Below, in pieces: positions 14,509 to 58,915 of a stretch of 64,000 bases of DNA. The notes beneath the pieces are model-generated. The model ran no database searches, had not been told where the DNA came from, and was given only the letters and a program-made list of their open reading frames with translations. The first letter of the stretch is position 1. Each line of letters opens with the position of its first letter. Where the stretch lies: contig NW_003158724.1 of assembly GCF_000003605.2 (NCBI RefSeq), forward strand, positions 1,222,824-1,286,823, in the 5' to 3' direction. A program made the position numbers and the translations under genes. The stretch comes from Saccoglossus kowalevskii. Taxonomy: Eukaryota; Hemichordata; Enteropneusta; Harrimaniidae.

Positions 14509-14557
<49 letters not shown>

Positions 14558-33348: not shown

Positions 33349-33941
33349 CTACCATGGGATCTGACAAACCATCAACATGACGGTAAACACAGTCCCACAA
33401 AGATAAGCTATTAAGCACACTCTATCAGTCACTTTAGCGATACGCTTCCATTCTCGCTGGATGCGTTGTTTCTCCGCCATTCTGTCGTTGTAATTATTAA
33501 GCATCCTCAACTCTCGGAGAATCTGTTTTAACAGGGCTATATTTTCGCCAGTCGTTGGGCTAGAAGTCAGATTTGAAGACGTATATGTTGTCCTATTTCC
33601 ATCAATCTCACTCCGGTATGACGGACTCAGCCGTAATATCGGTATCGGTGAGTCTGGACATGTACGCGAATGATTGAGGTCCATACCATTCATGCCAGTA
33701 AGGGGTATGAATTCTGCGCCTGCCTTCGAATGGCGAAGATTTGAGACGGCAGGTTTTTTGCGGCGCTGCTGGTTGATATTTACATTGAGAAACCAGCCAA
33801 CGTATCCAATTATGTACTTTTTTGCCCAATTCGGTACCGGTAAACTGTCCTTCTCAGGTCCCCGGTAGTAAATATTTACCACAAGTACGTTCATGGCGAG
33901 CGATACAGATATAAGTATCATGGTCGCTGCATAGTACTGAC
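33349..33941 (-). CDS. cassette A exon 7 (M3, loop, M4, stop)
   Basis: This 593-nt terminal exon starts GQYYAATMILIS (M3) after the acceptor TTTTTTCTACAG. It carries a cytoplasmic loop with SPIPILRLSPSYRSE, an amphipathic helix (LLKQILRELRML) and M4, and ends CQIPW then TAG. Cassette B's exon 7 has exactly the same length. Confidence 0.95.
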
Positions 33942-36900
33942 CTGTAGAAAAAAGAATTGTTGAACTTTTTAGTCTGTGATTTGACATGTAACACACTCGG
34001 AGTATTCCATGGCCACTCGGTATGACTCGGTACCACTCGAGATGCTCCGGAATTTTGTCCGATAAAACACTTTCTCCAATGTCAATCGGGAGAATTGTCC
34101 AATACAAATATGCACTGAAGCATTTCCCAATAATTGTCTTTCTTGGAATAACTAACAGTTGGCATGGTAACCACAAGGGTCTTTGCCGCTATTTTACAAT
34201 GAAATAAATAAAACCTTGCAAGAGAATTGATACCGTTTATGTAAGTCTCTAGCGACGAAGCCCTTTTGTGAAATGTAGATAGATGATAGATGACATTGTC
34301 GTTCAAGTCGATGTTTGTATGTATATTTAGCCGTTCGTTATTTGGAATATAATGTATTTTTTGAAAGCAGATTATTTAAATTAATGAAACACGACGACAT
34401 TTAAATGCCAGATTGAACCTTATGCCCAGTTACGCCAATGAGGCACGACTTATAGGACAAGTATATATCAATACTAACATGACTGAATAATTACCTATTA
34501 CGGGAACCGCATCCGAAGCAGGCATCACCTCAGCAACCAGCAGTAAGAACACGGTAAGGGAGAGCATCACTGTAACCCCCAGGCTTATTTTACCCTGTGA
34601 TTCCGCGGGCAAGAAGAATGTCAAAATTGTCATGAGTGATATCAGCGTGCACGGCATGATAAGATAAAACACGTAGAATAAACACCTCCGACGAAAATAG
34701 ATTGTGTAACTAATATCAGTGTATGGAATTCCAGGGGTGTCTGGGTAATATTCCTTGTGCGCTTGCGCTGTTAAATCTTCTAGATCCCATTCGCCATTGC
34801 TTACAAAGACTGAGGTACTGCCTGTAATATGAACAGATGAGAAAGTGACAAAAAAGTGACGCATTTCTCAATTTTATATATACGTACATGCATTTGTTTG
34901 CTGAGCAAAACTGTGCAATACACAGTAAATGTTACTTTCAGCAGTGTGAATCACTTTATCGGGTATAACGTTATTAGAATGAATTGAGAATTTATCAAAC
35001 GCAAGTTATTTCACCACTCGCCAGATAAAAATGTCAGAACGCCACCACACCTTCTATCTGCATTCACAAGTCACTCAGCTCAGAGCGTTCTCGGTGAGCA
35101 TCGGTGTAGCACGTATAGAACGCTCACATTGTAGAGCGCCCCACAGCGATCCCGGATGCGACGTATCAGTGGAAACTACGCCGTAAATATTAGCTTCATA
35201 TTAAGAATATTTCAAACACCAAAACAGTAGTGTCGTGAACGACAATTTCTTATGCGCATTATCGCTGCGCAGTAGTTTCAGTGACGTCATTCATATGACA
35301 TAACATGTAATATCCAATTGGTAGGCAATATACCATATACTAGTACTACACATTTTGATTCAAAATCTGATCTTTACTACCAAATTCTATTGCTAATAGC
35401 ATTCACGCATTTCTCACGTTGAACGTTCCACGGAAAGAGGCATCTTCATGTCACTGTACCCAAGAAAATTATTGTTTGGGAAAATTATTGTTTCTACGCT
35501 AGAGCAATATACATTTACGTGGACTTTATATTATTTCTGTAAAATAAAGTTTAATTTATTCAAAACTTTCTAACTACAATATATTTACCTTGCCTAGTGT
35601 CTAATTGCTGCTTTACGACATCCTGATCTCGAATTAAAGCAGTATTAATATAGTCACATTTTGTTAATATTAGTAAATGCTAGACTAATCACAGGCACAG
35701 CAAAGCACGCGGTATTTGTTGTCAGTATTGTACATCTATTCACTTTCATATAATTAAACTTTTTTTCATTTCAAGCAATAATGGCCCTAAGATCCAATTA
35801 CTTTCGTACCGTATATATACACAAAAGAAACTAAAAAAAACATCTTCGTAAATTAAGTAAATGCTGTGCTGCCTTACGTCACGGTTGTACGGATTAAAAG
35901 GTTTCTGTTAATTGCATGTAGCCATATCAGTAATTAACTGTCATTCAATTTGTATATATGATGAGGTAAAACAGTGAAAGCAAAAACGACTGCGCGCAGT
36001 AATGCTCTTCTTGTTGACAAAATGGAACTAATCACGAAAATAGTCAATCCAGAAAAGTAATTAATGATAAGGGATTACCAAAGAACATTGTCACATATGA
36101 GTGACATTCAATATATGTTTGATTTCAATGAAACATTGATCAAAATCTCAAAAATAAAAACCAACCCGATGTATGAAAAATAAATTACCCATACATGAAC
36201 CCAGAGTGATTCTGATTACTTATTCATTATATATTTTAAGTGATAAAGAAGTGTTGTTGTGCCATAAAATTTTGTCTACACTAGATGCATGAATATTTAT
36301 AGAACCATGTATAAAATTCATGTCACTGTACATTGTGTAAGTTGAAGAACGTCAACTGGTGCTGCAATGAGTATAGTCGAAGGTGGCCAGGCCAGAGGTA
36401 GGTGCTTTGAAATAGAGCGTGTTTACAATGTTTTACGCTAGTTATTTGGAGGTTGCAATGTTCATGGACCTGCATAAGTCAGTCATCCTTGATGAATACA
36501 ATGAATACCATTTTTACGACTATATCGGAGTAAAAAAAAGCTTTCCCGAACTAACATACTCGAAAATGATAATCTTTTTTGTTGTTGGGATTCTGGTTAA
36601 CGGACAAGGGCATCTGACAACGCCGATTGTAGGGAATAAACGAATCAATGGGGGATTCTACTTAGACCAGTTGGTGCAAGATCGTTTATGCATCCACTTA
36701 CCTGAACCATTCAAAACCACTTCGAATCCGTCGTGCTGCCATGTTCCAAACTTCATACTACATCTCTGTTCATCAAAGGGGAAATACTTGGGGTCGATTT
36801 TACAGTGACCTCGAAATATAACTGGAGCTGTCCAGCCGACCGAGCCGTCGCTGTACACAACGACTAAATGGTCGAGAAGAAAATTCTCGTATCCGGTGGC

Positions 36901-37508
36901 AGCGCTGAAAAAATAAAATGAATGATTATTGGTGGCAGTTTTCCGCTAATCGCTCATACGTGTAATAGATCACTTGAAATTTCTGAATATCCGTTTTTTC
37001 TAATAAGTTTTAATTGTTGATGGAAGATTATTCAACATATAAATATGAATATAACATTATATTAAAATATTACACAGTGGCAAATAATTAATTAATGAAA
37101 TACTTACTTCTGGTAAAAATAAACATCTGGTAACCACAACCTCTCAGCAGGTACTTTAATGCTCTTAATGCCACCGTAGTCTGTCTGGTTCCAAACAAGG
37201 TATTCATCTTGCCAATTCTGTTGGACAATACACGTGCACTTATACGATCAATTCGACCCCGAACATTTCCCATACCAAAACCGAACTTTTCGATACAACT
37301 AAACCAATTGTAATCCGTTTCGGAAACCGGACCTTGTTATATTCTATTTTCTTTTACTTTATATATTGCATCAAATTTGGTCTCGAACAATCGACAATAG
37401 GTTGTTCAGCTTCGATACTTTGCATTAAAATGTGAATATAGCAACAACTAAAAAAGAACTTACTAGCGCCACCCAGCAGTTACTAGTCAATGTCTGTCTT
37501 TTTTCGTC
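33349..37508 (-). CDS. nAChR non-alpha cassette A, exons 3-7, no exon 2 found
   Basis: Five minus-strand exons (37508-37464, 37217-37108, 36904-36702, 34821-34495, 33941-33349; 45, 110, 203, 327 and 593 nt) join in frame with GT-AG introns and no internal stop. They cover loop D to M4 of a nicotinic subunit: SNCW, loop A LWLPDVYFYQ, Cys loop C-KIDPKYFPFDEQR-C, loop B FGTW, loop C KEYYPD (no paired Cys), M1 with IMPCT, M2, M3 and M4 ending CQIPW. M2 is preceded by ESQGK where family members usually have SGEK, so the -1' Glu is absent. The start of the extracellular domain (LVRPV exon) is not found between 37.5 kb and cassette B. The product is either spliced to the shared exon at 55.6 kb or truncated. 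Exon 7 protein differs from cassette B at about 30 of 197 positions by eye. Confidence 0.9.
34495..34821 (-). CDS. cassette A exon 6 (loop C, M1, M2)
   Basis: This 327-nt exon encodes GEWDLEDL, loop C without paired cysteines, RRRCLFYVFYLIMPC (M1), ESQGKISLGVTVML (start of M2) and LLLVAEVMPASD. The acceptor is ATATTACAG and the donor G|GTAATT. Confidence 0.95.
36702..36904 (-). CDS. cassette A exon 5 (Cys loop)
   Basis: This 203-nt exon encodes GYENFLLDHL, WTAPVIFRGHC, the 13-residue Cys loop, FGTWQHDGFE and a terminal NGS sequon. The acceptor is TTTTTTCAG and the donor G|GTAAGT. Confidence 0.94.
37108..37217 (-). CDS. cassette A exon 4 (110 nt)
   Basis: It encodes NWQDEYLVWN to LPDVYFYQ. 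The acceptor is CCAACAG and the donor AA|GTAAGT. NQT is a glycosylation sequon. Confidence 0.93.
37464..37508 (-). CDS. cassette A exon 3 (45 nt)
   Basis: It encodes DEKRQTLTSNCWVAL. The acceptor is ATTCCAG and the donor GTAAGT. A cysteine precedes the loop D Trp where most subunits have Val, Ile or Ala. Confidence 0.93.
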
Positions 37509-38419
37509 CTGGAATTATTTGACAAGAAAACGAGAATTATATACAGAATATAACAGCATGCACTTCTTCATCGTAATAATCAGTTAACCCTGTCATCGCC
37601 GACTTGTTGCATCTTGATTGTTGTTGTACTTTAGGGGAATTCACATGATATACTGAACCGTAGATGGCGCTGTCACAAACACAGATTCATTACAGAAATC
37701 TCCCGCTTGCGCTTTTTTTCTTATTCAAAGAACAAACGCTCACATTCACAATGGGCTTTCATTTCAATTCGCAACGTTCTGATTTGTTTCGAATCATGGG
37801 TTATTTTGATTCTAAATGCCAGCTTCTCAAATTTTATTCTGGTGTTTTTGTACGTCCAGTATTTCTGAAGTTCTCTGTCGTTTCCTTAACTGTTCCACCT
37901 TAATGCAAGTTCAACTCCCGAATCACATAACCGTATGGTGGTCTTTGTCAAGACAACAATATTTAAGTGAAATGCCAACTCTATTTAACATTGCATGTTC
38001 TAGTTCTTCAAATAAATGTTCAACCAAAAGGTCCTCGATAATGTTACAACGTTGTTTTTGCTAGTTGACTGTCATGGGCTGAGCTACGTATAGTAACGAT
38101 TTGATGTGAATGCTGTCAATATAAACTACGTCGAGATCAATTTTCTGTAGGAGGTATGATTGGCATATTGATATCGACTGATGCAAGTGTGCATATAACA
38201 TTTGATTGCACCGGCTTCGAATACAAAGTAATCACGCAAACGTGTGGGAATTTGTAGAAAATGAGAGTACAAATAAGATTGAATTAAGAATCTGATTAGC
38301 ATGTTCCCCCGACGTTGTCTTCTGAGAGATTCAAAATTGAGGCTGTAGGTCGTCCAATTCTTCCACTCAGTGTCATAGTTTTTGATTGCATTGACGTGTA
38401 AGCCATTAAGGTAATTCTG

Positions 38420-38425
<6 letters not shown>

Positions 38426-38471
<46 letters not shown>
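38426..38471 (+). repeat. (TA)n microsatellite
   Basis: About 23 dinucleotide units sit near the end of duplication unit A. The matching place in unit B has none, so it expanded after the duplication. Confidence 0.9.
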
Positions 38472-38475
<4 letters not shown>

Positions 38476-38791
38476 CAATGGACGGTAGACCAATTAAAAG
38501 AAAACAAATGGGCGATGACTGTATTGACATTCACTGGCTAAATATAAAATCACCAGAATAGAACATATTTAAAATTTACACACTGAACGGTTTAGCGTTA
38601 TTCAAAGAATTTTGGGCTCGTTTGATTATCAATCCATTTATATAGTTATTTGCTCTCAGGATATGGTGCAAAATGTTTAAACACTTCAGTAGACTTGATT
38701 TTATGCAAATATTACGATTGTTACTCTGATGCATGAGTACACAATATAATATCTAAAACACAGACGCTCTTGTGTTGATATACTAGCAACC

Positions 38792-38813
38792 AATAAATAA
38801 ATAAATAAATAAT
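38792..38813 (+). repeat. (AAAT)n microsatellite
   Basis: Five tetranucleotide units are visible. Confidence 0.8.
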
Positions 38814-38959
38814 ACAGAACAAATTATAGTCAAAGTCAAAGCGTTCGAAATTAACAGCAGTACAAGTATTTGGATTGTGTTTTTAGTATGTTCCACTTGT
38901 AGCATGGCTTCAGAATTTTAACAATATAACACCACACCTGTCTGAATATAAATACAATT

Positions 38960-38971
38960 GGGGGGGGGGGG
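38960..38971 (+). repeat. poly-G run of 12
   Basis: A homopolymer run, comparable to those at 52651-52659 and 53783-53795. Confidence 0.9.
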
Positions 38972-40789
38972 TACTTGTGTTGGTATATCTGTGCAGATAT
39001 GTGTTGATTTGTACTGTCAACGATTCACACTCTTAGGACACTGTTTTTGTTGTCAATGCCTTTCGTGGTTTTACATGCCCAACCATCTGAGTCATGTTGC
39101 CTTGGTTGTTTAACTAGCGAACGCTACTCCTCATTATGTACTGTGTGTTACATGATGGCATTTAACATTGACGTAACAGACCACAGTTCATCCACTAACG
39201 TGCTCTTCAGCATACTAGTACATTTGGAATGGGGCCCAAAGGATCAAAAAATAGAATTTGGAAGCAACAGAATTTGAACACAATTGCCACAGAAATAAGA
39301 ATTCGTTTCAACACGTAAAATACATGAACAAATGAAACCACAATTATATTAGTGATCGCTTTTCTGTTTTTCCCGGCTAGCGATTAGTGCACTTTCAAAA
39401 ACCATGTTACGTGGCGGCACCAAAATACCAGCATGCATCTGTGTGGTCTGAATGTATGTTTTACAGTAAACATTGTCTACAATTGTTTATTACAAATGAT
39501 TTGTGCATGTACTCAACGATTTGTGTAGGTCATTGAACACGTGACCCTGGTCTTTTAACCTAGTAGATGAAAATACATCTTGGCCGTACATGTTATTGTT
39601 ACTTATTTTGCTCCGGTAAACCTACCGGATTGATTCTATTATCCGTGTTTGTCCAATATACGTTTAATTCAAATATAATGAGTAAAACGTTTAAAAACAC
39701 ACAAATGGACACACAGAAACACGTTGTATGAGCTGGCTTGGTAAATCAAAGTAATTCATGGCGAAAAACCAACTGAAAAATAACGGTTAGAAGTAAAATG
39801 AAAATCCCTTCCTCCCAATTAAACCAAAAGATAGTAGCAGCTTGTTCTCTCTTGTCTGCAGACTATCTCACGGTGATAATGGAATTCGCCTTATGTGCAT
39901 ATGCAGCATATACGATGTAGCAAACCTTAACTCAATAAATAGGTTAAAAATATACATTAAGAAGTTACAATAAAACAAAATAGAAATAACATATCCAAAC
40001 AAAGGTTGTTTAACATCCAACAACACAAAAAAACAAAAAACAAACAAACAACAACAAAACAATTAACTGACAGGTACACAACATAGTAAATCAGTAAGAG
40101 AAAGATATATAGAACTTATGTTTTGAGAAAAAAGGGCAGACCCTGTTCCATATGTGGCCCCGTATTAAACACATGGTTTAATAGTTTAGACGAAAGAAAA
40201 CAATGTCTTTTTGAAAAGTCTGCATATGTACTACAGGCATAGAGGACGAGCTATATTGGGATATTGCTCTGAAGGTGTGGACAATCAATTATAGAATAAA
40301 AATCATATCACTTGTCATATAGTCAAAAGCAGACCCCTAGAATCAAATATGAAGCAGAATAGTAAGATTCTGTAATCTCAAGTTCTTATGCTCAAGTTCA
40401 ACTGGATCATTCGTTGCAATTTAATCAATAAATTTAGTATTGGTGATGCTAAGTATATCATCAATATATTCAAATATAAAATTAAAGGACTAGTATAGTA
40501 GAATATAAGTTTAAAACATTTTAATTGAAATACAGTGTATACAGTATTAAATGAACGCTAGTCTTTTTACAGACGTGATGAATTTATTGATGAAATATGT
40601 GCATATTTCCTAATTAACATACATTAGGCATTGTTAACTGTTCTGTTTTAATATCTCAAGATCCATTCATCACATTTCAATGTATACAAGTACTCTGAAG
40701 TGAGACACAGACTCAATAGTGCAGGGCTGAAATTCGTGTATAGTAATTATTGAATTTAAATAAATAAGCAAATTACTACAGATCTACTA

Positions 40790-41560
40790 CAGATGTCTCT
40801 AGTACCAATCATCAAATTGCAAATAAACTTGGCACATATATGCTGCGACATAAAAAATACACCTAATTAGTTTTGGGTTGAAATACGTGCGTATTATCTA
40901 ATTTCTGATATTCCAATAACCATTTAGGTAGCAGCCTGAGGATATCCGTTTGCAAGGAAAATGGCAATGATGACCAAAACCTATCTACATATTTAAAAAA
41001 ATATATTTATTCAGAAAACCCAGCCTTGTTTGCTTTAAGGTCACGTGACTCCTGAAATAGACAGTGGCGATAAATGAATAATATAAACAAAAGAACGATA
41101 ATAGTATATATACGGTTATTCTTGATATAACAAGAAATATACCATTGTAGAGTTAGTGTGATGTATTAATTACTATTTTGCTTATTCTGTTTCCATAATT
41201 TGGTAAACTGTAACAATTATTTTTAAAGGAAATAAAGAGGAATGATTTTAACATTTAAGAATAACCAAACTGCGACATTGTAATGCTTCTAAATCAAGTC
41301 GCTGCATGAAATTTAGCACATCCATCAAAATGTTTCCACCATTTTCTTGCAAACATACTACCAGGCTACACTTCAGCTTATACAATTTGAATAAAACTTG
41401 GTACGTGATTGGTATTGGATACTCCACAGACATAATACGTTTATTGTTGGAAAAAACGGCGCGCATTAATTACCTAAATTACAATTGGATATGTCAACTT
41501 CATTCACAAGATTTAAATAAAACTTGGAACATATGTGCCCTTGGACAATAGAGTTGATAT
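40790..41560 (+). repeat. three diverged copies of an AATAAAACTTGG-containing repeat
   Basis: CAAATAAACTTGGCACATAT (near 40820), GAATAAAACTTGGTACGTG (near 41391) and AAATAAAACTTGGAACATAT (near 41515) occur in the same orientation in the single-copy spacer between the duplicated units. Confidence 0.4.
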
Positions 41561-43137
41561 GTTTTTGTAATAATAACCCAATTTAGATAATTATGTCAAC
41601 TCGTTTCAGCTCTTTCACAGATATCCCAATAACCACTTATCAAACGTAAATGATGCTTGAAAATAAGTTCTTTGAGTTACTGCACAGACCACTGTGACAA
41701 CTCACATATTGTTTTCATTTGCTATAATATTTTACTATCAAATTCAAGTCAAAGCAAGGACTTCTTGTGTAATAAGCTAGTCCCAAGTTTATAATTTATC
41801 TTAAACATTTCTTTTATATATTTCCTCATGCTTGAATACTTTTATCACACGGAGTTCTTTGTAAGCCTTCTTTGATATTTATTATAATGATGCCAATAAA
41901 AACTTTTATATACAATTCTTCACTGGAACAAGTAGTTTACATATCACACAAGTAAATGATTACAGTTCACAATAACAAGCTTAAAAATTAGTGACGTCAC
42001 TTGGTGTGAAATGTGTATACATATAATAATTTTAGCCATTATGAAAAGCGGTCCGCCAAAGGCACAGCCGTGTAATGTGTAACTTTATAAATTTTAAATA
42101 TTACGAAAAAGTATTGTCCGAAACGCTGCCGATCTGGCTGTGTGAAATATTAATAATGTTATCGATGATAACCATATCAATATACATTTGCGTGTACCAT
42201 AATTACGATACGGTTTTTACAACTAGGTGTAATAATAAAACAGAACAGGACAACTGATTACCTGTGACCACCGCGATGCACACGTAAACATTCGTATTTC
42301 ATTTTGTCGGTGCGAAAAATAGTACTGATGATAATGTAAATCATCTAAAACTAAACATTGTAAAAATAAACATTGTGCTGTTAAAGCACGTTATGAATCG
42401 GTATTTTAAATGTGCAGCCAGAATTCTGAAAAGCCGTACCCACGACAAAATAATTCTGATTATTCGTTTTTGATCTAAACACAAATAAATAACATATTTA
42501 AAGTTAAACTATGTTCAGTTCATATCGATTTAAATATATTTTTTGATTTGATTTTTTGATTTGGGTGCGATATGGCCACTTTATTAGTTGTAATTCTAAC
42601 TGTGTCACTGAATGACTCCACGCAAAGACATCATCTATCAGCCATAGTGGGTGGGCTGCACTTAAGGTGATGTATAGACCAAATATTACAATAAACACAT
42701 TACATATACACGTGGATAAATTGAGTGCAGTGCAATATTGAGTGCAATATTCTGGTCATTTGCAATTATGTTATTTTGTAATTAAATCTCAAATATGAAA
42801 TATTGGAAGCCCACTACTCACGTAACTACGCATTCTGTGGAGCCCACAGACAAGAACCTAACACTTATACTTTCCCTTGAGGGCGCCGCGCATGAAGTTG
42901 TTGATGAAATAAATGAGCACTACCGATGAAATGGTAGTTTTGTCTGTAAGGCGCCTATTTGCACTTAAAAGACAATCTGAGTTATCATTGAGTCTATCGT
43001 TTGCATATTTATCATAATAGTTAGCTTTTTTTATATAAACAATAAATACATCCTGCATAAGTAATACTATTACACAATACAATACTACCTCGGCACATTG
43101 CACGATCACTCGACTTCAATCCTATTGCCGTCAATGC

Positions 43138-43410
43138 GTGAGGCCACTAGTAAAGAATTTGACCGCAAATGATTTAAATGTAAAATCGTACCCCCTAGTT
43201 GTCACATGGTCGTTTGGTCCGTTGATACTTCGGTATCAACTTGAAGTGTTAACACGTATAGTATACGATTCGCCCAATAATCTATACGGGGAAGTTTTCA
43301 AGGTTGATTTTGCCTCCATTCCATCAACTAAAGGCACAGAGTATAAAGAAATATACAACAATTTGCGTGGAATACCCTCTATATCAGTCCTAAATGGCGA
43401 CATTCAATAA
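43138..43410 (+). CDS. 90-codon ORF, unknown, downstream of cassette B
   Basis: The plus-strand frame from ATG to TAA includes WSFGPLILRYQLEVL and YKEIYNNLRGIPS. It is antisense to the region just after the cassette B stop. It has no counterpart that I could see in unit A, so it may be inserted sequence. No domain is recognised. Confidence 0.2.
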   Translation: MRPLVKNLTANDLNVKSYPLVVTWSFGPLILRYQLEVLTRIVYDSPNNLYGEVFKVDFASIPSTKGTEYKEIYNNLRGIPSISVLNGDIQ

Positions 43411-43682
43411 ATAAAGCATTTTTGTAAGTACTATGCGCAGATATGCAGACTTCAAATAATATGGCCCCGAGTAAATCGATATCAGTTAACGTGGTCGAAT
43501 GAAAAACTTGGTCCACGAATTGTCTTTTTCTTTAAAATAATAAATTCCTTCTATAATAATAGTGCTTGGAAATATAATGGTCCAGTCAAAGTTCGCCATT
43601 TTGGAAGTTTTGTTATTGAGTCTCATGGCATGACGACAAGTGATATATGACGTATATGGCAGCGACGTCACGCCACTGACTG

Positions 43683-44275
43683 TTACCATGGTATCTGACA
43701 AACAATCACCATAACCGTGGACACTGTCCCACAGAGGTAAACTATCAAGCACAATCTATCTGTCACTTTGGCGATACGCTTCCATTCTCGCTGGACGCGC
43801 TGTTTCTCTGTCAATTTGTCATTGTGTTTATTAAGCATCCTCAACTCTCGGAGAATCTGTTTTAACAGGGCTATATTTTCGCCAGTCTCCGGGCTAGAAG
43901 TAAGATTTGAAGAGTTATATTTTGTCCTGTTTCCATCCATCTCACTCCGGTATGACGGACTGAGCCGTAATATCGGTATCGGTGAATCTGGACATGAGTG
44001 TGAATGATTGACGTCCATACCATTCATGGCAGTAAGAGGGATGAGTTCAGCGCTCGCCTTTGAATGGTGGTGATTTGAGGCGCTCGGTTTTGTGTGGCGG
44101 TCCTGGTTGATATTTACATTGAGAAACCAGCCAACGTATCCAATTATGTACTTTTTTGCCCAATTCGGCACTGGTAAACTGTCTTTCTCAGGTCCACGGT
44201 AGTAAAGATTTACCACTAGTACGTTCATGGAGAGCGATACAGATATAAGTATCATGGTCGCTGCATAGTACTGAC
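43683..44275 (-). CDS. cassette B exon 7 (M3, loop, M4, stop)
   Basis: This 593-nt terminal exon starts GQYYAATMILIS and ends CQIPW then TAG. The M3 end and the start of the cytoplasmic loop are nearly identical in DNA to cassette A, including an unbroken match longer than 50 nt around PNWAKKYIIGYVGWFLN. Confidence 0.95.
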
Positions 44276-47200
44276 CTGTAGAAAAAGTAAAAAAAAATTG
44301 TTTAGAAGTACGATGCGAAAACAGCGATAACATGAAGTCCTAGCGATGCTCCGAGACCTTATTCCACACAACGTCTCAAATGTCAGATTCGATGAGCATG
44401 ACGAAGCCATCCCAGATGTAGTAAAGCATCTCCGCATCGAAACAATTGAAACAATGACGATATTTATCACTCATTTATTGTAAAAAAAATATCGGGGAAA
44501 TATGCCGTATTATTTGCAGTAATTCCAAAAAGACCAATATTTAGTAAAACAAAAACAATGTGTTGAACATACCACAGTAGATAGTGTAACGCAATTCCTA
44601 TAAATCGCGCCCTCTACCGACCATGCGTGTTGTGACGTAACTATGAGGTAGATATTTGACGAATCAACGACTGTGTTTGGTTTGTCTTTCAGAATAGAGT
44701 AAATCACTCACAAAATTTAGAGGTTATTCGCAGCAAATTAAATTACCGCGGTAAATCATAAATGTTGACATACGACATTCTGCGGCGACCGGCGAGTCAG
44801 AATATCAAACCTAAAGTATTTTCTGTGACTAATCTCTTGGAACTTCTTTATTTTTAAAGAGTAGCATTTGTTTTTGACAACTTCGAAGTCTTGGTGGGCT
44901 ACTTTAATGCTATACAGTCTATAGACTGCCTTTAATACGTCATGGAAGCACTTTGTCGGTAGAAAGTTCGACTTATATCACAATGCATATGACTTTGTAC
45001 TTACCTATCACAGGAACTTCGTCCGAGGCAGGCATCACTTCGGCAACCAGCAGTAAGAACACGGTAAGGGAGAGTAACACTGTGACACCCAGGCTGATTT
45101 TACCCTGTGATTCAGCTGGCAGAAAGAATGTCAAAATTGTCATAAGCGATATCAGCGTGCACGGCATTATAAGATAAAACACGTAGAATAAACACCTTCG
45201 ACGAAAATATATGGTGTACGTAACATCTGTGTAAGGTGTCCCGGGGGTGTCTGGGTAATATTCCTTGTGCGCCTGCGCCGTTAGATCTTCTAGGTCCCAT
45301 TCGCCATCACTTACGAAGACTGAGGTGCTGCCTGTAATGACATAAATAAGCTGAGAACGATACACTGACATATTCAAATAAATAATAAGTCCAATGAAAA
45401 CATAATAATGAACTTGAGTTATGTTATGTCGTGGTCGTCGAGTATTTTAATTTGTAATTCGACATAAGCTTCATCTTAGTATTGATGCATACAATACACA
45501 CTCATTTCAAACAAGTTTTTTAAACACTCAAAGAAATGAACGTATCCGCAATGATATCCCATATGCAGGTGATAACTTTAAGGTAAAACGTTCTTAAAAT
45601 TGTCAAATGAGTTGAGTGTACAACTGACATCAAGAATCAACACGATTTAAGTTAGTCTTTTTCACAATTTTCTTGAACTCGTTAGTTGTACGGCATATAC
45701 CAGACAGGTCACGGTTCAACCTGTGGTTAAGAACTGGTCTTAATCACTGCCTGGTTCTTATAAGCATGATTATTATACCCAATCAAATCACACGATATTT
45801 TCATTGCTAACAACAATGCCAGAAACCATAATATCGATATTAGCATTTTTTTTTAATATTAGCAAATGGTAAATTAAATACAGGCACAACAGATTACGAT
45901 CTATTCGTTTTATTTTTATTGTATTTATATTCGCTCTCAAATTCAATTCGTTCATTTCGGACAACAATGACCTTCATATCTTATATACTTGTACAAATGA
46001 AAAACAACTGGATGCAGTGCTTTACGCCTTATTATTACCGGTTAAAATGTGTCTGTTAATTGCATGTAATAATTTCAATATGTAGCTATCTTTCAATGTG
46101 TATATATGGCGATGTGCAAAAGCAAACACAGGAATTATCTTCACATATAACAACTAAATTAGACAAATAAAAACAAATCACCAAAAATCACTAACACGTA
46201 ATGCCAATATTTAAAGGCGTGTACATGACACGGGTGTCTTATTTTCAAAAAATCTTCAAACACAAACTTGGAAGTAATCCCCCATCTCGATGTATGAAAT
46301 AATGAATAACCTATTATCAAAGTTACAAGCATAAAGTGATTCTTATTAATTATCCATTGCATCTCTTAAGTGATCGAGCAGGGTTGATGTGCTGTGTGAT
46401 TTGCTATATATACTCTATGACGTGGATATTTGATGAACTATGTAAAACATGCATACAATTGTGTATATTCTTAGAGCCGCTGAGTGTGTATCTAAACGGA
46501 TCCGGAATAAATTGAATTTATTTCATAAGGCAATGTACAAGTTCATACTTGAAAACAAAGAATGGCAAATTTTGGCGAGAAACAAAAGATGTCGTGACAA
46601 CAAATGTTCCAATTTGCCATACTCGACAATAATAACCTTCCTGTGAGATTACTGGTTTACGTACAAGAGCAACACACTGTGGACTGTAAGGTATATATAC
46701 TAATTCTGGTTCGTGCACGTGGAGGATTTTACTTAGACCATCATTTGGTGTGAGGTCATTCATGCATCAACCCACCTGTGCCATTCAAAACCACTTCGAA
46801 ACCATCGTACTGCCATGTTCCAAACTTCATAGTACACCTCTGTTCATCAAAGGGGAAATACGTGGGATCTATTTTACAGTGACCTCGGAATATAACTGGA
46901 GCTGTCCAGACCACCTCGCCGCTGCTGTACACAACAGCTAAATGGTCGAGGAGAAAATTCTCGTATTTTGTAGCCGCGCTGAAAAAAGAAAGAAATGGTT
47001 ATTGGTGGCAGTTTTCCCTTAAGTTATTGAGATGTACTTGATCACTGATGTTAGCTTTCGGATGTTATGCTTCTAGATCTTTTATTATTATTGATCTGCT
47101 CCTCTTTTTACTGATAGGTTCGAATGGTAGATGGGGGAGTATTCGGCGTGCCTGATTATTTCCATAAAACTTTTAATATTCAGAGTTGGCGAAATATCTG

Positions 47201-50200
47201 TAAACATCACAAAAGATTGCGTGGTCTCAATTGTCATTCACACACAGATGGTCTTAATATTTGAAAATCAAAAAAGCGGTTGGAATTTGTTACTCATGAG
47301 GGTTTTTATTTATCGAAATCGTTGTTACTGTCGGTGAACTTCGTTGTAAGTGAAATATTGTTCGTAACACTAGTAAGTCAAACGGACAGTACATGTAACT
47401 GGGTGCTCGTAACCTTTACTATTATTAAAAAATTATATAATCACGTAAATAAATGTAATTAATTAATGAAATACTTACTTCTGGTAAAAATAAACATCTG
47501 GTAACCACAGCCTCTTAGCTGGTACTTTCATACTCTTAATTTCACTGTAGTCTGTCTCGTTCCAAATAAGGTATTCATCTTGCCAAGACTGTTGGATAAT
47601 GCACGTATAGCTGAACGATTAGATGACATCGATCGATCCAAAACTCGTCAATATTGTCAAGCCATATCCAATTCATCATGAACATAACGCATTTTCATAG
47701 ACAACCATGCTCTATCATTAGCATCTTGAGTTTTTTTTCAATACATTTGCACCAAGTTTGGCCTCGAATAAATATTGACTTTCCACTGTTAATCTTTAGC
47801 AATAGTTGAAAACGAGTCAAAACTGTTTGTTTAAAACAATATTTAATAACAAATAAACGTGAACTCACCAGCGCCATCCAGCAATTACTGGTCAAAGTCT
47901 GACTTTTTTCATCCTGGAAAAAAATAGTTGACGACTAAACAACAAATATACGAAATACAACAGCGGCAGATTGGTTGCGACAGAGGGTGTCTGGATTTCA
48001 TTCTAATCAACAACGACGCCCATTCCAGCTTATGTGATTAGTAATTTAGAATACCGAATATGTTCTTTGATTTGTTTTTATGTTCTTTGTCTATATTCTT
48101 CTTTAAATAAAAAGGCCTCGCTTCTTCATTATAATATTTGTTCAACCACTGTCGTCACCGACTTGTTGAATGCTGCGTGTTGTAGTTGGTATACTGAACT
48201 GTAGATGGCGCTCATTAATATGACATTGATGGATGAATTCTCAGCAAGTCTATACAAAATGATGTTAACGTATGATTGCGCAAAGCAATCATTAAAACAT
48301 ATGGGATTTTGTACAAAATTAGAGTAGAAATAAGATTGAATTAAGAATCTGATTAACGTGTTCCTTGGCGGTATCTTCTGCGAGATTCAAAATTGGGGTC
48401 GTAGGTCGTCCGATTCTTTGAATTTGTTTTATGTAGTTTCATTCTAGTATGAGCCGACACGGTAATTCTAACAACAGAGCGTATACAATGGTCGCTACAG
48501 TATAGTCCACATACAAAAAAAACTAATTACTGATAGTGGACGCAATGCGCGCATTAGTGCTTTATTGGATATCGCGCAGTGGCTAATTGCAATGTACAAT
48601 ACAACATCACCGAAATGGACTTGTTGTGTTTGTCGCATTACAGTGAACATATTAAAAACATCGACGCGTAAGTGAATAATCTCCATAATGTTATGTACTG
48701 AACGGTTGAACGCATTAATTCATATATCGCCGTCCAAACAGTTACCACCATTAAGATAAAATCAACATTTTATTTTATTTAGTTTAAAATGTATGTTATT
48801 TATTCAGTCTTTTGGCCGTTTGTGTTTAGGTAATTGCCAAATTTGGAAGTAAACAACGATTACAGTGAGCGGAATGATAAAAGAAAATCCTCAAACAAGA
48901 CACAAAAACAACTTTCTGACGCCGCATGTTGCTACACTACTTCAGACTGATAGAGAGTACGATTCCATGTTGGCGACACGATGCAGCACTTGTGTTGCGT
49001 AAACTCTTGAAATTTCATCAAAAATTGCTCAAGCCTTTCCCGTATTCCGAATTAGTAGTGATATGAACATGTGGTTTTTGGTTATGAATTATGATCAGTG
49101 TATGTGTTAGCTCACAGGAATTTAATGACAGATGATACGTGTTTTGCCAGTGATCTAAGGATGTATTTGTCTATAATTAGATGGGATGTCATTTTAGTAT
49201 ATAAAAGTCATATTTTCGTGTTTGAACAGTCGTAACCGTGAAGGCAACAAAAGTCCCCAAAATATATTGATAATTAACTAATGGATAAAATAACCGAAAT
49301 TAGGTGTTGTTTCTTTTCGTGTTCTTAGACCAATCATCGCACATATTTTAAATACGTAAATTTAAAGATACTTTTGTGGAACACACTGGACAACGTGATG
49401 CACAATTAACATAAACGCCAAGATAAAGCGCATGCATACCCGAGCACGCGAACTATACAATTAGTTTACTCCTAACGGGCTGTTTCATTTTACTTCATAT
49501 GGTACTCAGTCTTTTAAATTACGTTTCGAGCTCAGTCACTCGTAACCTGCCTTAATTTGATTGACTCATTAGCGGATATCGCCCTTTAAATCAATCGCAA
49601 CAGGACGCCGTTATAGGATGATAACTATCCAGATATTGGACGTCTCAATAAATCTCGTTACTTGTAAATTTCATTGCATTGTCTTATTCCGCCAACATTA
49701 GACAGCCATCTCGAACAGCCAAGGGACATTGAAAAGCTTTTAGTTTTAACTAGCGATATTGGTCATGCGTGTTTGGTCTATTCGGGAATCTCATTAGGAG
49801 GAATTGAGTTGATATCGACAGATAGTAACTTCAATTTCCGTATACGATGAAGAACTACTTCGTTAAACGGCACAAAACAGGAATTTGTATGAATTAAATG
49901 ATGGTTAGGCAGGTTAAAAATCACCAACACAAACACGCTCGGGATACTTACTAGAACTTTATGATCGAATTATCGTGTCTTTATCGTGCTATGTATGTTC
50001 GGTGGTAAAAATGTGTATTGTTTATCTTCAGAGGATCACACTGGATCGAAAATAAATGGAACCGCAAAATGTGATAGGAACATTAATGTAGAATGAAAAA
50101 TTGCTACTCATCAATTATTCAATACGATTGCATAACGATTTATGTATCTGCCATACACAGATAACATCCATCAATGCCTGAGAGTGGTTTGGAATTAGTA

Positions 50201-53200
50201 CATGGTATTGGTATATTTGACTATTAATATGGCTGCCTGTCACATGGAATTAAATCGCGAAACTTAGTTCACATGTGACATGTTACGTGTATATGTGAGT
50301 AATTTGGCGGTCCAGGAATGTATAATATGTTAGCCCATATTTTGGGAAAAAAGTGTTAATAAATGACCCCAACATTTCCATTTACACCATTTAGTAATCA
50401 CTGTATTTTTACTTAATGATTATCGGTCAAAAACGTTTACTCTACTGTGTTATGGCATTTATGTTATGAAAAATCACCGTATTTAGAATGTGACTGATAT
50501 TATCAATTAGAAACAAAAGTCTCATACGGAAAAGTTATTTTCTTATGATACCACTCAATTTTAATACATCATCATTATTAGCCACGATGGAGAAAACACT
50601 TTACAGTGGTTGCTTTACTTGAACAACGACAAGACAGGTGTCACTCTGTGTTTAGAATATGTGTGGGGTACAGATTCGATGATTTTATACGACATGCTAG
50701 TTAACTTAACCAATAAACAGGGACGAAAGGTCATACTAGTCTCCCACGAGACAAACAGTGTTTGATCACCATTGAAGTTGCTCCCTATGTCCCCATTCAA
50801 ACCATTCCCTGCATAACGCACCATGAATCGATTATAACGTACACCCGTACAGGATTGTTAGCTTTGCAGTAACGTTGTAAAACCCCACAAAATATGTTTC
50901 AAAATGAGGTGTACAAATTATGGAAGACGCTAGTAAAATTACCTGTCTACTTTCATCACCGCCATCATGTATACTAGTATATCACCGCGATACATGAAAC
51001 ACAAATCGTCACGTGTCTCTGCGGGCTCCTCGGATACCCGAGATATCGAACGTAGCAGTCAAGTATTCAACATAAATATGATGTTTTATTGATCAATGTG
51101 AGCAATCAATCCAGACAGACTATTCACTGATCGATGGCTTATATTGTATAGTTATTATTTTGCAAACTGTAAAATGATTAATTTTCACTGAGTTTAAATT
51201 TCGTTGATTTAGCATCTCAGGCATATTCAGTTGGTTTTAAATTCACGGTTTTATTATCATGATTTAGACAATGTGTTCTATGCTAAATTTTACATATTCA
51301 CTGGGTTTCAATTTAGCTCATTTTCCTGTCAGCGAAATAAGCAAAATTAAAAGCCAGTGAATAATTAACCCTAAAACAGTATTATTCTAAGTCAGCAGAG
51401 AAAATCGTGAAGGACTCGGAAGATTTGAGGGAGATAAAACACTTTTACCCCGTGTGATAATTACTACCATCACGGTGATACCGCAATGGCATGGGGAGAA
51501 GTATGAATAAATGATAATACAGAGCCAATCAAAGTAGTCGATTTATTCCAACCATCAAATGTTTCTCACGTGACTGACCATCAACCAACCAGTAAGCGTT
51601 CTCCGATACCACTGCTTACTAATTTGCGTGAGCGCATCATTAGTGTTTTCAGCCCAGGCGGAAATGAACTAGAAAGTCGAGTCCAAATTCAATGTCACTG
51701 GGCAACCTCAATTTTACATATTTTAGAGGTACATCTTACGGTTGTGTATGTAATTCACTGAGTCTTACTAGATGGTTATATTTATCGTGACTCACTGTGA
51801 AGTCTTACTTACAATTGATTTAAGAAAATCATTATTAGTGATAAGCCGTCACAGTTAGGATACCAGACTGCATTTATCGGAAATATGTTGGTATTCTATA
51901 CGATCTGTAGTAAATGGGGAATCACTATATTGACTTGCTCAACATAATGGAGTGACAATGCTTTCTGATGTAAAATGTATATTGATGTGGGTACAATCCA
52001 AAGCATACGTCAGTCGAAGATGTTATTGAAATGAGTACTAGTAACAGCCTCGCTGTCACGTTGTCTTCAGTATACCTCATCCTGAAGGACTCGAACAATT
52101 TGAATTATTGAATTACTGGTTAGCGTTTTCCTCGAATGATGATATTATTCCATTTTACAGCGATCGACATAAAGCCGCGTGTCCAGTGGAACAATAAATC
52201 GAATCTCACACCAAGAGGGACAATGGTGATCGTTCGAGGGAAAAGCATCACCTCGTATACACCACTTAAGATAGTTGGAAACACAGATCAGCGTCGTTGG
52301 CGAGGGAGCAGAGCTGTTCAAGCGAGAATAGAGTAATAGCGTATATCATTATTCTATAGCATGGGTTCGGTGACCCATCAGATCAATTTCGTGTAAAAGT
52401 GACAGAAGTCCAGTTAATAGATATGATCATAATTGAGTTTCTTTCACTACCATCGATCAGAAATGTCAGATGTATCAAAAGAATGCACCAAGCGATGACA
52501 TTCCAAAGAAATCACGACTATATGTGATAGTTTTAACCACATAAAATATCCTAATTCAATTATGTTATTAATAGCTATGGGATATGTTAGTTTAAGAAGG
52601 AATAAAATAGTTCATCACATCGACATACTGATAACGTTTTCGGCTTTATTGGGGGGGGGAGTAAATAAGTAACAAAGCTATATCTTGTATATGCATCTTT
52701 CCACAATCACAGGTTTTCTTATATAGAATACCGTTGCTAAGCCGACAATGTGCAAGTCTAAATGATATGAAAGTATGAGCGCCGTCTCGCAACATACACC
52801 CACGGCGTGCTAATAACATATTGAAATCGCAATTTTGTCTCAATATTTAATAGAAAAAAAAAACCAGCAAAGAGTTTTATGATGAACTGCTGCCATGCTA
52901 TTAGTCGGACTTCTATTCGAATCATGACGTCGCGTGTGGAACTCGGTGAAAAGTTCAAGTGCCAAGTGAATCCCGACATTTTCCGTTTTATAAGAGACGG
53001 TGCAACAACAACAATAATTCAGGCTCCCGGCAGAATCATGATCTAGCAATAAATGATACTTGCGAAAGTTATGGACTTACAATAAATGCGAGATTCTTGG
53101 ACGTGTTGCTAGTTGGCCTAGCAACGAAAGGATGAGAAACGTGATATGTGTGGAATGAGAAAGTGAGATGTATGGACTGAGACTGGCAAGGAATGAGAAG

Positions 53201-55723
53201 CGCGCGATGTCATGATGATGAATCTCGAGAAATTGACATTTGGACTAACATCGACTACTGATGAACGGCGAATCATAATCTGTGGATTGCATAGTTCACT
53301 GTTTCAGCTTGATAAAAACGAAGAAAATATCTTAGATGTTATTTCCCTGCACTCCTGATCTCACCACCTTTTTTTCTACGGACGATATTCTGAAGATAGA
53401 ATTAATGCCCGCCGACGTTTTAATTTAATGTGTTTACCTCGTAATTGAATTAACAAAATGACCTTTCCAGAGACCTTTTAACTGCGTCATAGTTACCCAT
53501 GGGCACTCGGTAGAGTCAAGCTGGTATATATTGCTGATCAGTGCAGTTATCATAATGAAAAGCCATGTGAGGTAATCATGAGCTGCCAATATTCTTCTAT
53601 GACCAAGAGCTGAATCTTAGATGCCATTACGAAAATTAACGTTGAGTTTTGACCCAAAATTAAAAGAAGTAATGATTTTATTGAAGGAAATGAAAAATAA
53701 ATCTGCGCTAGTGTTACCTTTTTATATATATTAACTGATTAAAGTGGTGGACTAATTTCATGTGATTCAGTTTACTTGCCATGGGGGGGGGGGGGTAATA
53801 TATTTTACCCGGATGTTGGCTTTCATATTTGCATATAAGCAGATTACTATATTCTTTATAGTCCATATATCAGTATTAATAATAATCGTTCAGTCTACAT
53901 TTTAAATAATCCATCTCCCAATTATCGCAATAGCCAAGTTCATGACCCCTGTAATTCAGTTTGTGTATATTCCTTCGCCACTTTGACACTCATCTGTACT
54001 ACGCACGCGCATAATACTGGATGTTTTGCATTATGAACTGCTTAGGCCACAGTTATGAGATACTGTTTTCATTTCATTTTTACAATATTTTGACAGAAAC
54101 CAGAAAGGAAAATCGAGAGCTGCCCGTTTGAACGGACGCGTGCGCGCTGACCAGAACCAAATCTTTTTGTTTGGCCTTACTTTGAAACCAAGCCAAATTG
54201 GCGTTTTGTGCATGTCAGCCATTGTTTATATTTCATAGTCGTTCTTCAGCATCGATGTATTCCTTGTGTCACAATGGTAATGGTACATAGACAAGCAACT
54301 AACTTCAGTACAGATGACGTCATAGATGATTGTACGGTTTGCATTAGTATCGTGTTATTTCCCCATAACAACATTTCTTACTAGACGTTCTTTATATAAG
54401 CATGGTACATTTGGTATTTAATAAATTAAGAGAACGCGGACAGCCAACAATAAACGTGCATTCCTATACATGTTAATTTACGTAGCAATCTATATTCATT
54501 TTCTACATATCTGGAAATTTACAAGTAAATTCACGCAACTGTAATTTCGTGTGAAATTGACCAGTTCTACTACAGTTAAATTTAATAGTAATTACATAAT
54601 AATTACTATTATTTGTTATGGTTTAGTATATTTGATTCGAGTATCTGGATATGCCTGTGACATTACCGAAATGAAATTTTTTTTTTCATTCGACGATTTA
54701 CACACGATATGCGACAGGAAATATGTCAGTGTTTTCAAATGCCATGCATCGCAATGATTACTCGGTTAAGTAAAAGTTGTGAATGCAGAACAGTACATTA
54801 GGTATGCTAGCAAGGTTCGATTACGTCAACACTAGGCGTTGGTGGAGTGATTTGGGGTCCTAATGGCTGTGCATATTTGATATAGCCTTCTACTAACAAC
54901 AATTAAACGTAGATTCCCTTTTGAAAGATTTGGTTCCTGCATTGATTTATATTTCCATTGAACATATGCGTCAGATAAAACACTGCATAAATTATTGTAG
55001 AACATGCAGACAATGAAATGGACCTTTTCTGATCAAACAACTGATGACTCACGAACATAATTCACACAACATGCACATACATTGTGAATGTTTCTACGAA
55101 AAGGGCGTAATGCACATTACCTGTAAGTCGCGCCCTCTAGTGGCGGGGCGCTTTAGTGACGTCGAAATGACGTATATGGTGAAGGCAATGTCGTTCAAGC
55201 TGACAAATGTGTCTGGCAGTTGAGTCGTTCGTCATCTAAAACATAGTAACGTCTCTCCAAAATATAATCTTCATTACTGACAACAGCAGTTAAAAACTAT
55301 GTCGATGCTTTGAACGACATTAGTGTCACCCAGGTACGCGCATCGCCGCTAGAGGGCGCGGGGTTATAGGAAAGGTGTATTGGATGTTTAACCACTTTGA
55401 AATATGCATGCGTAAGTCTTTGACTTCGCAATAGCATGTTTGTATACAACAACCTGGAACTAACTACTTCACTGGGTTAAGTTTCCCACATGTAAACAGA
55501 AAACACACACATTACACACATACGAAATCAAATTAGATTGGCAACACGTTACACATATATTGATGAATTAGTATATGACTCACCATATCCAGCACCAGGT
55601 TAAGGAAGAACACCATATCGACATACGTCGGCGTCGAAAGGTCCATAACCGGTCGCACAAGGTTACTGTAATTCCCCAACTTGTCGTTAAAAAGGCGATG
55701 CAGATCTGCATTGCCGAGAATAC
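43683..55723 (-). CDS. nAChR non-alpha subunit gene (cassette B), exons 2-7; exon 1 not found
   Basis: Minus-strand exons at 55723-55584, 47913-47869, 47588-47479, 46978-46776, 45331-45005 and 44275-43683 (140, 45, 110, 203, 327 and 593 nt) join in frame. They give about 472 residues after the missing signal-peptide exon. Order of parts: LVRPV strand, loop D SNCW, loop A LWLPDVYFYQ, Cys loop C-KIDPTYFPFDEQR-C, loop B FGTW, loop C KEYYPD, M1 IMPCT, M2 preceded by ESQGK, M3, cytoplasmic loop, amphipathic helix and M4. It is a non-alpha subunit that lacks the -1' Glu. Sequons are NYS, NET and NGT. Intron 2 is about 7.7 kb. Cassette A lies downstream on the same strand and is a tandem copy of exons 3-7 only. 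Confidence 0.92.
44607..44620 (-). promoter_or_regulatory. CTCF-like half motif in intron 6 of cassette B
   Basis: GCGCCCTCTACCGA occurs after ATTCCTATAAATC. The same arrangement is found at 55.1 and, inverted, at 55.35 kb. The core is weaker on its 3' side. Confidence 0.25.
45005..45331 (-). CDS. cassette B exon 6 (loop C, M1, M2)
   Basis: This 327-nt exon encodes GEWDLEDL, a loop C without paired Cys, M1, ESQGKISLGVTVLL (start of M2) and LLLVAEVMPASD. The donor is G|GTAAGT. It keeps Gln-Gly at -2'/-1', as in cassette A. Confidence 0.95.
46776..46978 (-). CDS. cassette B exon 5 (Cys loop)
   Basis: This 203-nt exon encodes KYENFLLDHL, WTAPVIFRGHC, the 13-residue Cys loop, FGTWQYDGFE and an NGT sequon. 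By eye about 9 of 68 residues differ from cassette A. The donor is G|GTGGGT. Confidence 0.94.
47479..47588 (-). CDS. cassette B exon 4 (110 nt)
   Basis: It encodes SWQDEYLIWN to LPDVYFYQ. DYSEIKSM replaces the DYGGIKSI of cassette A. The donor is AA|GTAAGT and NET is a sequon. Confidence 0.94.
47869..47913 (-). CDS. cassette B exon 3 (45 nt)
   Basis: It encodes DEKSQTLTSNCWMAL, with a donor GTGAGT. It shares the unusual Cys before the loop D Trp with cassette A. Confidence 0.94.
52879..53046 (+). CDS. 55-codon ORF, unknown, inside intron 2 of cassette B gene
   Basis: It starts MMNCCHAISRTS and continues RVELGEKFKCQVNPD. The composition is coding-like but the length could arise by chance. 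It is antisense to the receptor gene. Confidence 0.18.
   Translation: MMNCCHAISRTSIRIMTSRVELGEKFKCQVNPDIFRFIRDGATTTIIQAPGRIMI
54031..54222 (-). CDS. 63-codon ORF, unknown, inside intron 2 of cassette B gene
   Basis: The frame starts MADMHKTPIWLGFK and is rich in basic and aromatic residues. It is on the same strand as the receptor. I see no splice sites that would link it to the receptor and recognise no family. It is probably chance or repeat-derived. Confidence 0.15.
   Translation of the reverse strand: MADMHKTPIWLGFKVRPNKKIWFWSARTRPFKRAALDFPFWFLSKYCKNEMKTVSHNCGLSSS
55130..55148 (-). promoter_or_regulatory. CTCF-like motif upstream cluster, reverse orientation
   Basis: The plus strand reads GCGCCCTCTAGTGG, whose complement CCACTAGAGGGCGC fits the animal CTCF core. 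It is part of a roughly 45-bp repeated module (see also 44607 and 55340). It lies about 440 bp downstream of exon 2, within intron 2 of the minus-strand gene. Binding is inferred. Confidence 0.4.
55340..55360 (+). promoter_or_regulatory. CTCF-like motif, forward orientation
   Basis: CCGCTAGAGGGCGC differs by one base from the core consensus and points away from the motif at 55130. It lies about 230 bp from exon 2, in intron 2. Confidence 0.35.
55584..55723 (-). CDS. only minus-strand nAChR exon 2 (140 nt)
   Basis: It encodes ADLHRLFNDKL, NYSNLVRPVMDL and FFLNLVLDM. The acceptor is TTATTTATAG and the donor ATG|GTGAGT. It has the same length and phases as exon 2 of the plus-strand gene. Its phase-0 end can be joined in frame to exon 3 of either cassette. 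Confidence 0.92.
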
Positions 55724-56313
55724 CTATAAATAACAACGATAATACTCATAAAAAATGTGCTCAACACTCTAATCAGTTTTACTTATTGAATTAAACATTT
55801 AGAGGGATCAAAGTTATTTAATTTGTCAATGTTTGTCAGTGGTAGTCGGCGACGACGTATACGGTTATCATCAATGCCTAGAAGGAACATACTTTCCCCA
55901 TCATTTCAAAATGTTCGTTTCACTAGAACATTTAAGCTGGTATTGTAATAATATGCGTGGTCAAAAACGGGTCTAGTCATATCAGTACGTTACTAGAGCT
56001 TCCCTCAATATAAGAAGCGTGAGTGATGTGTTGTACTCGAACAACACAAATTTACTTTTTTGTTACGTTTTGCGGGCTATAGTGTAAAATACCATAGTAT
56101 ACGCCCTCTATTGTTTGCATCATAAAGTGTCCCTATTGTATAACCACAGTTATTATTCTTTCGTGCGTACGGATGACACGTTCTCTCCACGTAATCATTT
56201 TTTTTATTTCAACTCGAAGCTATTAGCTTTTTTCAACGGGGCTTGTAAATTTACTGTGAATACAACGGATACCCTTGATAACTACGTCAATTGTACAGTT
56301 ACATTATCATGGA

Positions 56314-58864: not shown

Positions 58865-58915
58865 GATTGGCTAAACTATTAATCTTATAGCCAATCAGGT
58901 ACGATTGTATAATTT
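58865..58915. repeat. imperfect inverted repeat around TGATTGGCTA and TAGCCAATCA
   Basis: The arms TGATTGGCTA and TAGCCAATCA are perfect and the flanks match weakly. Each arm contains a CCAAT box, but no gene start is visible nearby. Confidence 0.4.

Follow-up and report, generated by a model that had tools for sequence, protein, structure and literature searches.

A nicotinic acetylcholine receptor locus of Saccoglossus kowalevskii with one exon 2 and two candidate alternative 3' bodies

Here we describe a nicotinic acetylcholine receptor (nAChR) locus of the hemichordate Saccoglossus kowalevskii, at which a single exon 2 lies upstream of two tandem copies of exons 3 to 7. The closest described systems are of several kinds. 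In human CHRFAM7A, a duplicate of part of CHRNA7, exons 5-10, has become fused to FAM7A (PMC11176066, PMC7949125). Drosophila mod(mdg4) uses trans-splicing to link a common set of 5' exons to alternative 3' exons expressed from independent promoters, and at Drosophila lola trans-splicing plays a part as well (PMC12692577). The chelicerate sDscam genes carry tandem 5' cassettes that are generally preceded by their own promoters (PMC4835542), while mutually exclusive exons are found in insect nAChR genes (nAChR alpha6 among them) and tandem duplicated exon substitutions in human genes (PMC1919356, PMC5111602, PMC9741552). Finally, retroposition and tandem duplication have enlarged the lophotrochozoan (molluscan) nAChR family, which includes intron-poor copies as well as tandem arrays (PMC6896357).

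The stretch analyzed (the window) is 64,000 nucleotides (nt) long and corresponds to positions 1222824-1286823 of contig NW_003158724.1 (C4771 below), in an assembly of 572 Mb and 4830 contigs. Its minus strand holds two nAChR cassettes, B and, downstream of it, A. We propose, at what we judge to be slightly short of an even chance, that one 5' module feeds two alternative 3' nAChR bodies, B and A.

Anatomy of the tandem cassettes and their exon 2

Rebuilding the exons from splice sites and reading frame confirmed that A and B, each comprising exons 3-7, lie in tandem downstream of a single matching exon 2 (Table 1). Exon lengths are identical in the two cassettes (45, 110, 203, 327 and 593 nt for exons 3-7), and GT-AG is present at every listed internal boundary. 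The sequence-only reading that preceded this analysis had described both cassettes as intact with good splice sites, exon 2 as occurring once, upstream of both on the same strand, and the interval between 37.5 and 43.7 kb as free of gaps; all of this was borne out. It had also pointed to phase compatibility. The end of exon 2 and the start of exon 3 are indeed both in phase 0, but this is so in B and in the neighboring gene C alike; because the agreement reflects nAChR family structure, it provides no independent evidence for a common exon 2. In its anatomy, the locus has one common 5' part and two alternative 3' parts in compatible frame.

Domains PF02931 and PF02932 scored far above their cut-offs in A, B and C, identifying them as Cys-loop receptor/nAChR domains. 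The match to the ligand-binding domain (LBD) starts at Pfam profile position 2 in B and C, where the domain is complete including the part from exon 2, and at position 41 of 216 in A, where alone it is incomplete; the part missing from A is thus the part encoded by exon 2. Exon 2 measures 140 nt both in the B gene and in gene C (10442-10581), and for this reason the boundary given in Table 1 is preferred over an alternative acceptor at 55705, which was the one used in the computations. Among PDB entries, human alpha-7 structures match the B sequence best. A vicinal cysteine pair in loop C defines alpha-type nAChR subunits. In A, B, C and a further gene of the contig, D, loop C reads YYPD(T/A)PG(T/I)PYTD, without vicinal cysteines, and all four are therefore predicted to be non-alpha.

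Gene C, the third nAChR gene of the window, occupies 10442-20337 on the plus strand, tail to tail with A, and has exons 2-7 present; a candidate for its first exon was noted at 4510-4573. The linker between M1 and M2 reads SQGK in A (34495-34821), B (45005-45331) and D (C4771:1127972-1128298) versus SGEK in C, and loss of the acidic residue may alter ion selectivity.

Searches for further copies of exon 2 agreed with its being single. Within the window, the matches listed by tblastn were exon 2 of B (E 7.7e-22) and of C (E 6.5e-6), with the next at E 0.46. Across the genome, no second close copy was found among the matches listed: the self-match (1.7e-24) was followed by five at 38 to 42% identity, two of which are exon 2 of gene D (C4771:1120848) and of gene C. 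An exon 2 profile run over 220 kb of C4771 returned C (E 6.8e-24) and B (E 1e-22), which match by construction since both are among the seven sequences from which the profile was built, and its next best hit had an E value of 0.28; about 65 kb of these 220 kb reads N, 63.6 kb of it at 1146000-1184435 and 1197622-1222823, on the 3' side of A. Upstream beyond the window, no other nAChR piece was detected in 39 kb at E 5 (none better than chance level), nor in 79 kb by a profile scan at E 0.05. A exon 5 and A exon 7 each have one close relative among the genome matches listed, namely B (83% and 85%), followed by D (63% and 46%). Within the window, runs of N are confined to 14459-14508 and 27695-28545, and 28546-79251 (window plus extension) is gap-free.

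Constraint on cassette A and the extent of the duplication

A and B have 371 of 425 residues in common, so that chance is not an issue, and A carries no indel and no premature stop in 1278 nt. A neutral substitution pattern in A, together with an absence of expression, would have counted against the sequence-only reading; what we found instead points to purifying selection, with 87 synonymous and 63 nonsynonymous differences from B (dS 0.401, dN 0.066) and a dN/dS ratio of 0.165 (bootstrap 0.11-0.24). By region, it is lowest in M1-M3 (0.06), followed by the LBD part (0.143) and the cytoplasmic loop (0.30). The exons align with 0 gaps in 1278 columns, whereas in introns and flanks 4687 aligned columns are accompanied by 1722 with gaps, and identity is 0.475 to 0.73. 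A neutral A would be expected to show about 199 nonsynonymous changes, against the 63 seen on both branches together.

The changes were also assigned to branches using outgroups. With gene C, 11 amino-acid changes were assigned to A and 8 to B, 28 being left unresolved (not significant, p 0.65); with human alpha-7, the counts are 10 on A and 7 on B; and with the closer outgroup D, they are 10 on A, 13 on B and 30 unresolved (likewise not significant, p 0.68), alongside 17, 10 and 23 synonymous changes, respectively. Were A neutral and B at 0.13, the probability of A taking no more than 11 of 19 changes would be 7e-4. Cassette A as a long-standing pseudogene or neutral copy was accordingly rejected, given its intact frame, its dN/dS of 0.165 and the absence of a detectable rate difference from B. 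By the counts with outgroup C, up to about 6 to 19% of the A branch could be neutral, and a very recent loss of function is therefore compatible with them.

The two cassettes are alignable over blocks that extend beyond the exons (Table 1), with no alignment past the block edges. Exon 2 lies 7.1 kb upstream of the 5' edge of the B block, consistent with a duplication from which exon 2 was absent at the outset. Shared words were then counted along the duplication diagonal, near which the A/B alignment had listed several very short matches; the count gave no significant excess upstream of the 5' edge of A: 30 nine-mers lie in the upstream band versus a mean of 22.5 in 56 control bands, 11 of which reach 30, and the corresponding count is reached by 9 of 56 control bands for eight-mers and 13 of 56 for ten-mers. 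Intron 5, taken as a positive control, gave 30 nine-mers versus a maximum of 16 in controls. The simplest history, as judged from the alignment, would be a tandem duplication of exons 3-7 and the 3' flank that never contained exon 2.

At the 3' edges of the blocks, candidate poly(A) signals occupy homologous positions; there are 12 such hexamers between the stop codon of B and A, and only the shared position of the edge hexamers is notable. The stretch immediately preceding the shared hexamer in each copy (31465-31577 in A, its counterpart within 41878-42228 in B) is conserved at 0.82 in 100-nt windows and is presumed to be 3' untranslated region. The spacer between the blocks (38426-41877) is AT-rich, has several weak short internal repeats and may be an old insertion.

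The most conserved non-coding stretch of intron 2 (Table 1), in which 100-nt windows reach 0.86 A/B identity versus a non-exonic median of 0.51, is possibly a control element. As an exon it was rejected by eye, the alignment having an indel and the readings stops. As a structured RNA it was rejected because 185 of 200 and 198 of 200 shuffles fold at least equally well. As a selector pairing with the exon 2 region and its intron it was rejected too, since its best combined energy (-107.5) is worse than that of every one of 12 shuffled pairs (-108.4 to -124.7). In an Rfam search of the window, no family scored as high as its gathering threshold.

Elsewhere in the window, a dispersed repeat of about 150 bp occurs at 18102-18243, 25290-25447 and 32146-32308, in both orientations and 79 to 82% identical; a similar peptide reading was seen by eye at 65149-65274 in extended coordinates. 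A viral-contig scan returned 11 pattern matches and 0 relatives.

Table 1. Coordinates of the exons, duplicated blocks and associated features (window positions).
Feature	Position	Strand	Basis or remark
Exon 2, common 5' candidate, start of LBD	55584-55723	-	only close copy among genome matches listed
B exon 3	47869-47913	-	splice sites and frame
B exon 4	47479-47588	-	splice sites and frame
B exon 5 (Cys-loop)	46776-46978	-	splice sites and frame
B exon 6 (loop C, M1, M2)	45005-45331	-	splice sites and frame
B exon 7 (M3, cytoplasmic loop, M4, stop)	43683-44275	-	splice sites and frame
A exon 3	37464-37508	-	splice sites and frame
A exon 4	37108-37217	-	splice sites and frame
A exon 5 (Cys-loop)	36702-36904	-	splice sites and frame
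A exon 6 (loop C, M1, M2)	34495-34821	-	splice sites and frame
A exon 7 (M3, cytoplasmic loop, M4, stop)	33349-33941	-	splice sites and frame
B copy of duplicated block	41878-48476	-	A/B alignment
A copy of duplicated block	31387-38425	-	A/B alignment
(AT)25 microsatellite, 5' edge of A-B homology; breakpoint or weak assembly point	38426-38475	.	50 bp, adjoins A edge
Most conserved non-coding stretch of intron 2, A copy (139 nt)	38224-38362	-	83% to B
Conserved intron-2 stretch, B copy	48281-48418	-	83% to A
AATAAA, 3' edge of B block, candidate poly(A) signal	41878-41883	-	hexamer scan
ATTAAA, homologous position of A block, candidate poly(A) signal	31387-31392	-	hexamer scan

Candidate 5' ends for cassette A

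Cassette A lacks the start of the LBD yet is constrained like its parent, and it must therefore be expressed with some 5' end. Exons 1 and 2 of B are the only fitting 5' end that we found, being upstream, on the same strand and in frame; alternative 3' cassettes are therefore the favored reading. We propose that exons 3-7 of an nAChR gene, with the 3' flank, were duplicated in tandem without the first two exons, and that purifying selection has since preserved the downstream copy A as an alternative body for the receptor. A predicted signal-peptide exon 1 (72350-72410 in extended coordinates) and exon 2 would make up the 5' module, which could be spliced either to B or, after transcription past the poly(A) site of B and skipping of B exons 3-7, to A; trans-splicing of the mod(mdg4) kind might take the place of read-through. 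The products would be two subunits that have the same start (signal peptide and the 46 residues of exon 2) and differ in the rest of the LBD, the pore and the cytoplasmic loop.

The predicted exon 1 lies outside the window on the minus strand, in a phase that fits exon 2. Under strict limits, no other candidate passed in 103 kb (both strands, all phases); with looser limits applied to 220 kb, it headed a list of 28, several of the rest being pieces of nAChR coding exons. Inside the window, a search for a signal-peptide first exon for B gave one weak candidate only, at 61603-61660. For gene D, the same method returned no first exon in the 15 kb upstream, which indicates that it misses first exons. 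Use of the exon 2 of gene C by A was ruled out for cis-splicing, gene C being on the plus strand.

The single listed close exon 2 upstream of both cassettes and the constraint on A lend partial support to the proposal in the sequence-only reading that shared 5' exons could serve two alternative 3' ends, while the joining of exon 2 to A exon 3 is a step that we infer, here from genomic sequence alone. This last point weighs against the proposal, as do several others. Candidate poly(A) signals of B precede A. The 5' edge of the A homology falls on an (AT)n microsatellite, a possible site of assembly error. With outgroups C and alpha-7, slightly more changes fall on A than on B, though not significantly so for C. 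The genome search scores the best candidates only, so that distant copies of exon 2 can be missed. No docking/selector pairing was found between the exon 2 region and an element upstream of each exon 3, 12 shuffled pairs being better. Finally, both splice signals of exon 3 are weaker in A, with an acceptor pyrimidine fraction of 0.62 versus 0.75 in B and a donor score of 3.6 versus 6.2, which would make A the minor form.

Two other explanations appear unlikely to us, and equally so. The first makes A a gene in its own right, in the manner of CHRFAM7A: it would be driven from a separate promoter, begin with private 5' exons that are either non-homologous or very diverged, and perhaps encode a truncated or dominant-negative subunit. 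CHRFAM7A is a precedent for this in the same receptor family, the conserved intron-2 stretch, as the most conserved non-exonic stretch between A and B, could hold control elements, and the 3.45-kb spacer has no detected homology to the flanks of either block. However, a search of 37509-43682 for a signal-peptide first exon for A with a donor in phase 0 or 1 found none within limits (an exon without a signal peptide would not be recognizable), the sole candidate there being a weak one in phase 2. An exon 2-like stretch was likewise sought by tblastn in these 6.2 kb upstream of A and was not found above chance, the best match listed having an E value of 0.97 (42900-43010). The strong constraint on the LBD part would also be hard to square with a protein that is missing the first LBD strand.

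In the second, A is complete in the animal and its exons 1 and 2 are absent from the assembly, through a misjoin at the AT array or a dropped stretch. The coincidence of the homology edge with the 50-bp array would suit such an error, and the scaffold has runs of N elsewhere. Against this, the gap-free interval described above spans both cassettes and exon 2, no spare close copy of exon 2 is among the genome matches listed from the 4830 contigs, and the orphan cassette on contig C2237 described below would demand a second assembly error of the same kind. That A was once a whole gene, has recently lost exons 1 and 2 and is now a pseudogene in the making is the least probable of the explanations, for although its past constraint and the possibly neutral fraction of its branch are compatible with a very recent loss, A is undamaged over 1278 nt and not faster than B with outgroup D, and the duplicated block appears to stop before exon 2.

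If the reading of alternative 3' cassettes is correct, a single 5' end would give rise to two subunits of pentameric channels, different from each other over most of their length, and splicing or termination, instead of separate promoters, could decide which cassette is used. In expanded families, the number of receptor "genes" would then be miscounted.

A second orphan cassette and comparison with known systems

A similar orphan cassette occurs in the same genome, on contig C2237, and a one-off accident is therefore less likely. The parent copy has exon 4 at 52122-52229, a fused exon 5/6 at 54755-55305 and exon 7 from 55517; the orphan, downstream on the same strand, has exon 5/6 at 58895-59442 and exon 7 from 60653. 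The whole locus spans 52122-61232 (loci L043, L046 and L047). Exons 2, 3 and 4 were sought between parent and orphan and were not found, 50000-59999 being without N; a 17-residue exon 2-like match at C2237:58347-58397 was not counted as an exon, as it has an E value of 0.13 and a stop just before it in the same reading. For the parent itself, exon 2 was seen in part only (48600-48653, E 0.006; 47500-48599 reads N) and exon 3 was not identified.

Both C2237 copies are open frames, of 388 and 393 amino acids, and both keep the CC pair. Between them, synonymous change has reached saturation (0.93 differences per site), while dN amounts to 0.292 overall and to 0.157 within exon 5/6. The pattern argues that an old orphan receptor body has been kept on C2237, and birth without 5' exons and later loss of them are both compatible with it.

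Genome-wide, 43 of 52 exon 5 matches, A and B among them, are preceded by an exon 4 of their own, lying no more than 20 kb upstream on the same strand without another exon 5 in the interval, although this is not a blind figure, 18 exon 4 rows having been added by eye. Of the remaining nine, only C2237:58881 has another cassette between it and the nearest exon 4; the other eight were not called orphans, as their exon 4 may be missed or fused. We regard it as possible, though somewhat doubtful, that orphan bodies are a repeated device in this genome, with one 5' module spliced to alternative 3' cassettes at at least two independent nAChR loci (C4771, and C2237 with a switch after exon 4) and long kept by selection. 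With two such loci, how new receptor genes originate by partial duplication becomes open to test.

Among the systems introduced above, CHRFAM7A resembles cassette A in being a partial duplication of an nAChR gene without its first exons, in the same receptor family. It differs in being fused to part of FAM7A and in lying in direct or inverted orientation, whereas A is a tandem copy that follows its parent immediately downstream in the same orientation, and our searches yielded no 5' exon to replace those it lacks. The large nAChR set of this genome (159 matches to the LBD family, with the best 150 of 247 candidates scored), with its tandem arrays and intron-poor copies, is like that of lophotrochozoans. 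Shared 5' exons are not described in the excerpts of that study, and the words "alternative", "incomplete" and "partial" are absent from its main text (PMC6896357). Among the titles and abstract openings listed by our searches, which covered open-licence PMC papers and the terms used, none described an entire 3' nAChR body serving as an alternative cassette.

The genes mod(mdg4) and lola are like the C4771 locus in having one common 5' set and alternative 3' parts, but at C4771 the alternative part would be a five-exon ion-channel body, and the layout is known here from gene anatomy. The sDscam genes share with it multi-exon cassettes in tandem and their alternative use with a constant part, yet they are its mirror image, with variable 5' cassettes and a constant 3' part. 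The exon substitutions of insect nAChR and human genes similarly derive alternative versions of a protein segment from duplicated exons; these swap single exons or small groups, whereas at C4771 nothing would be common to the two products after the switch. The C4771 layout would thus combine a known source, partial duplication, with a known logic, a common 5' part and alternative 3' parts, in a receptor channel.

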